From the NCBI GenBank assembly GCA_035461305.1, contig DATHVN010000158.1:1-59876 (forward strand): a stretch of DNA of 59,876 bases, read 5' to 3'. Every line of letters begins with the position of its first letter. The stretch's first letter is position 1. The translations under genes and the position numbers were made by a program. This document shows positions 14,887-27,512 of this stretch, piece by piece. Under the pieces are notes generated by a model that saw only the letters and a program-made list of their open reading frames with translations, made no database searches and had not been told where the DNA came from. This DNA is from Euzebyales bacterium (GTDB taxonomy: Bacteria; Actinomycetota; Nitriliruptoria; Euzebyales; JAHELV01).

Positions 14887-14936
14887 CCCGTCCGCGGTGG
14901 GTCGTGTCGAAGATCCGGGCACACGCCGCGGATGGG
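14887..14936. repeat. 50-base palindromic repeat, copy 1
   Basis: Begins CCCGTCCGCGGTG and ends CGCCGCGGATGGG; the ends are near inverted repeats of each other. A second, almost identical copy lies at 27015-27063 (one base substituted, one lost). A partial third end, ACACGCCGTGGACGGG, follows within 35 bases. It fills the gap between glcF and the CitE-like gene and looks like a REP-type element. Confidence 0.75.
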
Positions 14937-24572: not shown

Positions 24573-25564
24573 CAGTGGGCCTCCAGTCCCTCGTCCACTG
24601 GCCGCAGGTTCCCTGGGCCGTAGCGACTCGCGCGGTCAGCGTCGGCAGGCCGGTCAACTCTGCGCTCCCCGGAGCCCCCTGGGCCGTTGCGACTCGCGCG
24701 GTCAGCGTCGGCAGGTGGGTCGAGTCTGCGCTCCTGTCGGAGCGCGAGGAGCAAGTTGTCGATCAGGCGGGTGGTGCCGACACGGGCGGCCACGAGCGCC
24801 CGCCCCGACGTGTGCCCCGCGCCGGTCAGTGGCACGAGGGTCGTCTCGTCGACGACGTCAGCGTAGTCGACGTCGATGCCGTCGCCGTCCCGCAGCGTCC
24901 GCCACATCGCATCCCGAGCCCGGTCGGCGTCACCGCCCCACGTCGCGTCCGCGACGCGCAGCGCGGTCGACAGCCGCAGCGCCGTGACGCGCTCGTCGGC
25001 GGACAGGCGCACGTTGCGGCTCGACAGCGCAAGGCCGTCGTCGTCGCGGACGATGGGCAGCCCGACGATCTCGACGGGGACGTCGAGGTCGGCGACCATG
25101 CGGCCGATCGTGATCAGCTGCTGGTAGTCCTTCTCGCCGAAGCACGCGACGTCTGGCCCGACCACGTTGAACAGCTTGGTCACGATCGTGGCCACCCCGG
25201 CGAAGTGGCCGGGCCGCGACGTGCCCTCGAAGCGCCTCGTCACGTCATCGACGGTCACCGTCGTCACCAGGTCGCCGACGAACTGCTCGACCTGTGGGGC
25301 GAACACAGCGTCGACCCCCGCCGCCCGCAGCTTGTCGAGGTCGCCCGGCAGGTCGCGCGGATAGCTGTCGAGGTCCTCATCCGGGCCGAACTGCAGCGGA
25401 TTGACGAACACGCTGGCGACGACGGTCGGACAGCGTGACCGTGCGGCGGCCACGAGCGACAGGTGGCCGGCGTGCAGCGCGCCCATCGTCGGCACAAGCG
25501 CGACGGGCCCGTCGGCGTCCCGCCGCCACGCCCGCAGGGTCCGGAAGTCGTCGGTGACCAGCAT
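24572..25564 (-). CDS. panC: Pantothenate synthetase with repeat-derived C-terminal tail
   Basis: Joins pantoate and beta-alanine using ATP. 330 residues, longer than the usual 280-310. Signatures: VPTMGALHAGHLSLV (HxGH-type motif), FVNPLQFGPDEDLDSYPRD, FGEKDYQQL and LALSSRNVRLS. The core ends near LLLALRQERR. The last roughly 40 residues are two copies of RRxDxPADADRASRxGPG, encoded by a tandem DNA repeat at 24611-24734. ATG at 25564 lies five bases after the upstream DUF2520 gene. Confidence 0.95.
   Translation of the reverse strand: MLVTDDFRTLRAWRRDADGPVALVPTMGALHAGHLSLVAAARSRCPTVVASVFVNPLQFGPDEDLDSYPRDLPGDLDKLRAAGVDAVFAPQVEQFVGDLVTTVTVDDVTRRFEGTSRPGHFAGVATIVTKLFNVVGPDVACFGEKDYQQLITIGRMVADLDVPVEIVGLPIVRDDDGLALSSRNVRLSADERVTALRLSTALRVADATWGGDADRARDAMWRTLRDGDGIDVDYADVVDETTLVPLTGAGHTSGRALVAARVGTTRLIDNLLLALRQERRLDPPADADRASRNGPGGSGERRVDRPADADRASRYGPGNLRPVDEGLEAH
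24611..24734. repeat. 58-base tandem repeat inside the panC 3' end
   Basis: Two copies (24611-24668 and 24677-24734) begin CCCTGGGCCG and end CTGCGCTCC, with about five differences and a 66-base period. They keep the panC frame, adding a duplicated 22-residue segment to the protein. Confidence 0.85.
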
Positions 25565-25569
25565 CGCCC

Positions 25570-26457
25570 TCACTCCGCGTCGAGGATCGTGCGGATCGCG
25601 GCGGCCCGCTCCTCGTCGAGCCCTGCGCGGCGAGCGTAGGACAGCGCCAGCCGTGCGAGCGCACGGTACGCCGGGACGGCCTCGGGCAGAACCATTCGCA
25701 GGTCCGCGAGGTGGGCGTCGATCGTGGCCCGGTCCCCCCGCCGGACCGGACCGGTCAAGGCCGCGGCGCCATGCTCGGCGGCGTTGCCCGCCGAACTGGT
25801 GGCCAACGGCGTCAGGAAGCGTCCGGGTGCATCGATGCCGGCCGCGAACAGCAAGTCCCGGGCCAGGGCGACGACCGCGCTCGTGCCGTTGGCGCCCACC
25901 GACAGCGCTGCGTGGTACCGCACGCGATCCTCCTCGCGGACGTCGACAGGGTCGCCGCCGAGCCTCGTGACCAGCGCGTGCGCCCATTCGCGGTCACCGG
26001 ACGCCGCGGTCACGGCCCAGGCGGTGCCCGGCAGGTCCCGCCGGCCGGCGGCGGGCGTCGGGAACGTCTGCGCGGGGTGGCATGCCACGACGCGCGCGCC
26101 GGCCAGCGCCACGGGCCGCAGCACCGCCACGCCGTGCCGTCCCGACGTGTGAACGACCCGCACGCCGGGGTGCACCGCGTCGTCGGTCGCCAGATCGCGG
26201 ACGAGCGCTGGCAGGGCATCGTCACCGACCGTCAGCAGGACCAGATCCGCCACGGCGACGACCCGCGCCGGCGTGGTCACGCTGCTCACCGGCACCGTCG
26301 CGGCGAAGGTCGCGGCCGCGGGATCGTCGATGCCGGCGCGGCCGGCAACCGCTACCACCGGATGGCCGGCGTCCGCGAGGGCCAACGCCAGCGCGGTACC
26401 AACCCGCCCGGGCCCGATCACGCCGACCGACAGCGACGCGACGTCGTCCGACGTCAC
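25570..26457 (-). CDS. Rossmann-like / DUF2520 domain protein
   Basis: 295 residues with an N-terminal dinucleotide-binding fold (VGVIGPGRVGTALALALADA) and an all-alpha C-terminal DUF2520 domain (LSVGANGTSAVVALARDLLF; LARLALSYARRAGLDEE). Proteins of this kind are commonly found beside panC and folK. By analogy with NADP reductases they may make pantoate, but the reaction is unproven. Start is GTG at 26457, overlapping the folK stop by four bases. No separate panE or panB is in the window. Confidence 0.85.
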   Translation of the reverse strand: MTSDDVASLSVGVIGPGRVGTALALALADAGHPVVAVAGRAGIDDPAAATFAATVPVSSVTTPARVVAVADLVLLTVGDDALPALVRDLATDDAVHPGVRVVHTSGRHGVAVLRPVALAGARVVACHPAQTFPTPAAGRRDLPGTAWAVTAASGDREWAHALVTRLGGDPVDVREEDRVRYHAALSVGANGTSAVVALARDLLFAAGIDAPGRFLTPLATSSAGNAAEHGAAALTGPVRRGDRATIDAHLADLRMVLPEAVPAYRALARLALSYARRAGLDEERAAAIRTILDAE

Positions 26458-26984
26458 GGCGCGACCACCTGGCGACCCACCATCACGACGTCGCGGATCG
26501 GCGCGAGCCCAGCGACGACCTGGACCAGCGAGCGGCCGTCCGGCAGCGACGCGCCGGGTGCGACCTCGATCAGCGGGACCAGTGCGAAGGCCCGTTCGAC
26601 CAGTCGGGGGTGTGGGACCTGCAGGCGCCGCGTCGCGATGACCCGGTCGTCGTAGAGAAGGATGTCGACGTCGAGCGTCCGTGGCCCCCAGCGGACCGAC
26701 CGCCGCCGGTCGTGTGCCCGCTCGACCCGATGGCACACGCGCAGCAGCCCGTGCGGCGAACGTGTCGTCGCCACGCGGACCGCCAGGTTCAGGTAGTGGT
26801 CCTGCTCGGGACCGCCAACCGGTGCGGTCTCGTACACGCCGGAGACCGCGTCGACGCGGACGCCCCGCGTCGCGTGCAGCAGATCGACGCCACCCTGGAG
26901 GTGGCCCATGCGGTCTCCCATGTTGCTGCCCAGGCCAAGGAAGGTGAAGACCTCACGCCCAGGTGGCGCCCACGCGCTATGCAT
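26454..26984 (-). CDS. folK: Hydroxymethyl-dihydropterin pyrophosphokinase
   Basis: Transfers pyrophosphate to 6-hydroxymethyl-dihydropterin in folate synthesis. 176 residues from the ATG at 26984. HPPK signatures: FLGLGSNMGDRMGHLQGGVD, YETAPVGGPEQDHYLNLAVR, and RRSVRWGPRTLDVDILLYDD followed by VPHPRLVERAFALVPL. The start is uncertain: ATG at 26999 and a GTG at 27080 directly after the folB stop are in frame. The 27080 start would read through a 49-base palindromic repeat and add 32 residues. Neither ATG has a clear ribosome site. The stop overlaps the DUF2520 gene. Confidence 0.9.
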   Translation of the reverse strand: MHSAWAPPGREVFTFLGLGSNMGDRMGHLQGGVDLLHATRGVRVDAVSGVYETAPVGGPEQDHYLNLAVRVATTRSPHGLLRVCHRVERAHDRRRSVRWGPRTLDVDILLYDDRVIATRRLQVPHPRLVERAFALVPLIEVAPGASLPDGRSLVQVVAGLAPIRDVVMVGRQVVAP

Positions 26985-27014
26985 GGCCTGGCTCGACATG
27001 CGAGCAGCAGCGGT

Positions 27015-27063
27015 CCCGTCCGCGGTGGGTCGGTCGAAGATACGGGCACACGCCGCGGATGGG
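27015..27063. repeat. 49-base palindromic repeat, copy 2, between folB and folK
   Basis: Nearly identical to 14887-14936 (ends CCCGTCCGCGGTG and CGCCGCGGATGGG). It separates an AGGAG sequence just after the folB stop from the folK core, which suggests insertion into a once tightly coupled junction. Confidence 0.8.
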
Positions 27064-27080
27064 ACCGTTGCTCCTCGCAC

Positions 27081-27512
27081 TCATCTGACGTGCACGGGAC
27101 GTGCGCGGTACACGGTCACCGAGACGGCGTCGACGTCCTCGTCGAACTCGACCTCCGGCTTGGTCACCGTGACGCTCACGGCCGCGACCCGGCGAGCCGA
27201 GAGGAGCTCCTCGGCGATGTGCGCACCGAGCGCCTCGATGAGGTTGAACCGCGTGGACCGGACCATGTCGGCGACGTGGTCGACGAGCTCGGTGTAGTCG
27301 ATCGTGTCGTCCAGATCGTCCGTGCGCGCGGCGATCTGGGAGTCCATGTCCAGCACGACGTCGAGCACGAACGGCTGGCCGTCCCGGGCCTCGTGCTCGT
27401 GGACACCGTGGTGCCCGTGCACCCGCAGGCCGCGGATCTCGATCTGGTCATGGGGTCGCGACCTCCGCCGGTCGTCGACCAGCCTCCGCTGGGACCGTCC
27501 GATGTCGCTCAC
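27081..27512 (-). CDS. folB: Dihydroneopterin aldolase
   Basis: Converts dihydroneopterin to hydroxymethyl-dihydropterin. 143 residues. The core starts IEIRGLRVHGHHGVHEHEA, with DDTIDYTELVDHVADMV and RFNLIEALGAHIAEELL carrying the substrate-binding glutamate, and ends with VSVTVYRARPV. The GTG at 27512 gives an Arg-rich N-terminal extension of about 22 residues compared with the usual 120-residue protein; I saw no later start. It lies between folP and folK. Confidence 0.95.
   Translation of the reverse strand: MSDIGRSQRRLVDDRRRSRPHDQIEIRGLRVHGHHGVHEHEARDGQPFVLDVVLDMDSQIAARTDDLDDTIDYTELVDHVADMVRSTRFNLIEALGAHIAEELLSARRVAAVSVTVTKPEVEFDEDVDAVSVTVYRARPVHVR

Follow-up and report, generated by a model that had tools for sequence, protein, structure and literature searches.

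The folB-folK junction in the 59,876-nt stretch of Euzebyales bacterium DNA analyzed here (the window) is filled by an 87-nt long-form hairpin element lying at 26998 to 27084 on the minus strand. We consider it likely that this element belongs to a lineage-specific family of hairpin repeats that inserts in gene orientation into NTGA overlaps and carries a micro-ORF by which ribosomes would be handed on to the next gene. The copies, their orientation and position, the empty sites, the reading frame, and the paired arms can all be read directly from the genomes compared.

A hairpin repeat in the folB-folK junction

The identities of folE, folP, folB, and folK were confirmed (NCBIfam). The features used in this analysis are as follows.

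27081 to 27512, minus strand: folB (dihydroneopterin aldolase)
26454 to 26984, minus strand: folK
26998 to 27084, minus strand: 87-nt hairpin element of the long form, as matched by R1, in the folB-folK junction
26999 to 27030: first arm (32 nt) of a long inverted repeat whose arms are 84% complementary
27048 to 27079: its partner arm, also 32 nt
27025 to 27044, minus strand: long-form conserved core CGTATCTTCGACCGACCCAC, one mismatch against the search pattern
27081 to 27084, minus strand: ATGA at the 5' edge of the element, the folB stop TGA being overlapped by ATG
26977 to 27084, minus strand: micro-ORF of 35 amino acids, from the ATG of the 5'-edge ATGA to a TAG, sharing 8 nt with folK (from ATG 26984)
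26982 to 26984, minus strand: most likely folK start codon, matching the FolK start of genome G001
26997 to 26999, minus strand: in-frame ATG five codons before 26984, an alternative folK start
27078 to 27080, minus strand: GTG proposed earlier as a start, in frame with folK, 32 codons upstream of ATG 26984
14887 to 14936, minus strand: 50-nt inner fragment of another long-form copy, away from a start/stop overlap

A first-pass annotation of this DNA had described a 49-base palindromic element at 27015 to 27063, nearly identical to the sequence at 14887 to 14936. The element is real and repeated, and the two sequences match at 96%, but the 49 bases are the middle of the 87-nt hairpin, whose inverted arms are separated by a 17-nt spacer. 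The family covariance model R1 scores 99.3 bits on the whole element; the fragment at 14887 to 14936, which sits 48 nt past the TAG stop of the upstream gene, scores 54.7 bits over model positions 22 to 70. RNA spanning 26980 to 27084 has a predicted folding energy of −54.4 kcal/mol (z score of −4.1), which was equaled by none of 200 shuffles. Copy number, the R1 score, and the fold z score rule out a chance palindrome. A known Rfam RNA family was likewise rejected, there being no match at gathering score within the window and one chance-level match only (E of 0.53, a microRNA family) in five repeat-bearing loci. The short-form model R2, described below, found no significant unit in the window (best E of 0.023). 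The AGGAG reported directly after the folB stop is present and is part of the hairpin stem. The rest of the operon had also been described as overlapping or abutting genes, which is correct for ftsH/folE and for folK and the next gene, which overlap, but not for the folE-folP and folP-folB gaps of tens of nucleotides. Elsewhere in the window, two copies of a 58-nt direct repeat (24611 to 24734; 91% identical, spacing of 66) that is not of the hairpin family lie at the 3' end of what we take to be a panC-like gene, before a presumed coaX-like gene.

In two other genomes of the genus, G001 and G002, the folB-folK junction is free of the element, and the folB TGA and folK ATG overlap as ATGA. Among the 22 genomes that a scripted check of 30 loci could evaluate, 18 show an NTGA overlap in the FolK frame, and the window's own genome (G000), G003, G024, and G028 do not; the junction in record SLFH01000406.1 (L211) has ATGA too. 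Because the G001 and G002 sites are empty and overlap as ATGA, we conclude that the element was inserted into a start/stop overlap and that this repeated hairpin is a genuine insertion at a junction of coupled genes. The relatives thus agree with the earlier proposal that the element reshaped this junction, and they do not carry it as an ancient part of FolK. The G003 junction contains GCCCGGATCCTCGACAGACC, which differs from the 20-nt core of the long form at 2 positions and is the only such hit in the locus (0 of 200 shuffles), and on the strength of this core the junction likely holds a decayed long copy; alignment of the whole junction to the long consensus gave a score of 47, equaled by two of 324 windows of that locus and not above background.

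A second junction, between genes for an FtsW/RodA-family protein and a penicillin-binding protein, has 110 nt between two ATGA motifs in G000 and a bare GTGA in G001 to G003; of 25 genomes that could be evaluated (26 loci), 20 use the start at the overlap. At argJ-argB, G002 has a long unit (L097), and G000 has a short unit (L161, recognized as argJ-argB by its similar flanking sequence).

Copies, size forms, and placement of the family

BLAST with the folB-folK junction found 18 places in G000 at an E value of ≤0.001. R1, built from 12 long copies, gave 27 matches in G000, 5 in G001, 3 in G002, and 1 in G003, counts that include opposite-strand matches of the same palindrome. Genome-wide, G000 holds about 21 long copies (21 parsed), and a further 7 were parsed from the other three genomes of the genus. 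Across the class, R1 matched 5 of 66 genomes, four of which make up the genus; the fifth, G021, gave a weak match (E of 1.1e-4).

A short form, GTGCCTCAAGCAGCGACAGCGGTAGGCACACRTC, was traced from the 3' tails of long copies; it is a 34-nt hairpin usually followed by ATGA. The pattern GGCACACRTCATGA matched G000 at 34 places with at most one mismatch, versus 0 for the reversed pattern. A short-form model built without the ATGA, R2, gave 50, 35, 57, and 39 hits in G000, G001, G002, and G003, respectively, and at an E value of ≤1e-4 its hits among 396 sampled genomes of the phylum fell in the four genus genomes only. From the stronger of these hits (E up to about 2.5e-4), 51 short loci were parsed. 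The outer ends are common to the 34-nt short form and the long form (about 85 to 110 nt), and by sequence the two are one repeat family, in which the long form resembles a short unit whose left part has received a large hairpin. Both single units and arrays are found. At G000:C106:30641-30866 (L164), six short units with ATGA joints, spaced mostly by 38 bp, precede one gene and may form a VNTR locus. At L082 (G000:C89:34351-34489), about 50 extra nucleotides break the core of a long copy, and the frame linking both overlaps is kept.

Both forms show paired arms. Of the 21 pairs of the long form, 10 are changed on both sides, a level of covariation reached by 0 of 500 shuffles, with the structure derived from the same alignment. 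Among 37 distinct arm pairs of the short form, the mean was 3.2 consecutive pairs, compared with a maximum of 2.14 in 1,000 shuffles. The short core, CTCAWGYAGCGN{1,3}AGCGGYAG, ends in GGTAG before the 3' arm; the long-form core has no GTAG. Matches to the short core extend to 16 of 66 class genomes and 11 of 35 genera, and reversed-pattern controls were near zero (G052 had two control hits and no core hit). Outside the genus the arms differ and mostly still pair, and the core is intergenic in most parsed loci, often lying just after a stop and not always at a start/stop overlap. Ten other genera carry it with lineage-specific paired arms (L254-L263, L268, L269), and G050 alone has 115 matches.

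Placement follows the genes closely. In G000, 16 of the 21 long copies have the upstream TGA stop at nucleotides 2 to 4 of the element or one position further on, as do 6 of the 7 copies in G001 to G003. Gene calls based on codon usage put all 28 long copies on the strand of the upstream gene and 26 on that of the downstream gene. The next gene is convergent for the other two, L083 (G000:C157:42217-42306) and L087 (G000:C49:25303-25385), which are diverged long copies after a stop with no downstream start. Of 51 short loci, 49 have the upstream gene and 48 the downstream gene on the same strand. ATGA directly follows the unit in 33 of them, and 31 have a downstream ORF for which this ATG is an in-frame start. 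At 18 loci the unit directly borders the upstream stop, and at 13 the fit is exact on both sides. The G000 units in this set were first found by a pattern containing ATGA and are not independent of it; at the R2-found loci of G001 to G003, ATGA follows in 22 of 38.

Reading frames across the repeat and a possible ribosome relay

We asked whether translation started on the NTG of the upstream NTGA, and allowed to reinitiate via −4 or −1 overlaps, arrives at the downstream start. It does so exactly at 26 of 36 short loci (3.4 expected) and 16 of 25 long loci (5.6 expected), the expectation coming from random 1- to 2-nt indels in the same sequences; as with the spacings below, the copies are related and the events are not independent. 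This indel null replaced a one-base shift, which starts on the stop itself and is not an independent control. The 36 short loci are those left of 51 after removal of 8 lacking a gene pair, 5 containing runs of N, and 2 whose called upstream stop is the downstream start, and the 25 long loci are those left of 29 rows after 3 without a pair and 1 tandem duplicate were dropped. The distance between the overlaps is 2 mod 3 at 25 of the 36 short and 16 of the 25 long loci. In arrays, neighboring cores in 56 distinct contexts are spaced 0 mod 3 apart in 37 cases and 2 mod 3 in 16, with 1 mod 3 limited to 3. Ten short and nine long loci fail the strict relay; among the nine is the folB-folK copy, whose downstream ATGA is now ATGC and whose overlap distance is 100 (1 mod 3).

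Variation in the micro-ORFs showed no excess at third codon positions, and selection on a micro-peptide was rejected on this ground. Because variation is not concentrated there, the frame rather than the peptide seems to matter; the same absence of peptide selection means that the frame may reflect founder lengths and not ongoing selection.

In the mechanism that we propose, the repeat would insert, oriented with the genes, into an NTGA at which one gene's stop overlaps the next gene's start. After insertion, an NTGA would stand at the upstream edge and usually an ATGA or GTGA at the downstream edge, and the micro-ORF between them would start on the upstream NTG and end in a stop overlapping the downstream start. 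Ribosomes would terminate and reinitiate stepwise, so that insertion would harm translational coupling little. At folB-folK the downstream ATGA has decayed, and the micro-ORF ends instead at its TAG inside folK, so that ribosome delivery to folK is probably still possible. Mobility of the repeat and the hand-over in the cell are what we infer from this arrangement. Against a relay stand the two long copies that precede convergent genes and have no start to serve, and the frequent position of the core outside the genus after stops without a start/stop overlap.

Alternative readings and relation to known repeats

Rickettsia palindromic elements are inserted in frame inside ORFs, and the folB-folK element, a palindromic repeat readable in frame, could be taken for a protein-coding palindrome of that kind that adds 32 residues to FolK. 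The first-pass annotation had pointed to such an extension from a GTG directly after folB, and the frame from GTG 27080 is indeed open through the element up to ATG 26984. However, FolK of G001 (MSSAWALPGREVF) aligns at its start with the window FolK from M-26984 (MHSAWAPPGREVF), which places the ancestral start (26984 to 26982) past the element. The extension is possible but was rejected as the likely start; the most likely start of FolK is ATG 26984 or 26999. Unlike the Rickettsia elements, named in PMC3733652, the copies of the present family lie between genes and mostly end at a start codon, 26 of the 28 long ones between co-directional genes and two before convergent genes. We regard a protein-coding role as very improbable.

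The hairpin could instead be an insulator, a ribosome termination structure that hinders reinitiation and so uncouples the genes or lowers expression of the downstream one. It is a stable RNA hairpin beginning directly after the folB stop, as such structures do, and those treated in PMC7518266 reduce reinitiation, a counterpoint to the relay as well, in that reinitiation may drop where a highly stable hairpin follows the stop. However, the same source describes them as depleted where reinitiation is useful, and the copies here are in junctions that are NTGA coupled in relatives. The present hairpin is, moreover, a repeated element with its own coupled ORF; the open frame linking both overlaps is kept in most copies, and the structure lies within the micro-ORF, where an elongating ribosome would be expected to open it. 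An insulator is thus unlikely, and we consider it distinctly unlikely that the family is a conserved cis-acting RNA with a regulatory function in every operon where it occurs, and not a mobile repeat that is tolerated. The conserved core and the compensatory stem changes would fit such an RNA, but the same junction has a short unit, a long unit, or none between sister species, the neighboring genes serve varied functions (folate, arginine, cell wall), and the Rfam searches described above point to no known family. The least probable of these readings is a palindrome of the REP/BIME type that a RAYT (Y1) transposase would spread. REPs are small, many-copy intergenic palindromes that occur in arrays, are tagged with GTAG, and can overlap and supply stop codons (PMC3733652), and small intergenic palindromes, tandem arrays, and a GTAG within the short core are found here. 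In contrast to REPs, the present repeats have a strict gene orientation and a position tied to start/stop overlaps, and Y1_Tnp (PF01797) was found in 0 of 4 genus genomes (drafts, 87 to 98% complete) and in 1 of the 21 genomes searched, so a RAYT-driven REP was rejected. In this search, which was for Y1 transposases only, no mobility enzyme was found. Actinobacteria are absent from the phyla with GTAG repeats in the available part of PMC3733652.

We return to the reading of a lineage-specific repeat that inserts into NTGA overlaps. A wider version of it is possible, though we hold it only tentatively: a class-wide repeat family with a frozen core (CTCAWGYAGCG..AGCGGYAG) and arms rewritten in step in each lineage, which in this genus would have specialized on start/stop overlaps as a mobile ribosome relay, moved by non-RAYT machinery, with a tandem number that may tune ribosome flow.

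Repeats at start/stop overlaps with their own coupled frame are, to our knowledge, known only from mycobacteria, as MIRUs. These mycobacterial interspersed repetitive units are reportedly due to Supply et al. in 1997. As described in PMC12548453, they are short intergenic repeats, single or tandem, inserted at start codons, with the repeat ORF coupled by a −4 overlap. The present repeats resemble them in these respects: placement counts and empty sites at two junctions point to insertion at the overlapping stop and start of co-directional genes, the units lie singly or in tandem between such genes, and an ORF coupled by a −4 or −1 overlap is found family-wide, the folB-folK copy excepted. MIRU lengths of 77 and 53 bp, given in PMC4213456, are 2 mod 3, like the 38-bp spacing of the present repeats. 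Unlike MIRUs, the present family presumably belongs to a different bacterial lineage, and it has two sizes, the longer with a large hairpin insert, and hairpin cores with covarying arms. The anatomy appears the same in kind and the family looks separate by structure, in a comparison that takes MIRUs by description. The TAACTGA repeats near start codons of other bacteria (PMC4679880) are a different kind of repeat. In the accessible portions of the literature searched, no such repeat is described outside mycobacteria, and MIRUs are joined with translational coupling only in PMC12548453.

Another such family, different in build and absent from the corresponding sites of sister species, would mark translational coupling as a niche for mobile DNA. 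Junctions that carry none, short units, long units, or arrays at the same place would be natural experiments for measuring ribosome reinitiation. For annotators, caution would be warranted with start codons downstream of such repeats, as in the case of FolK.
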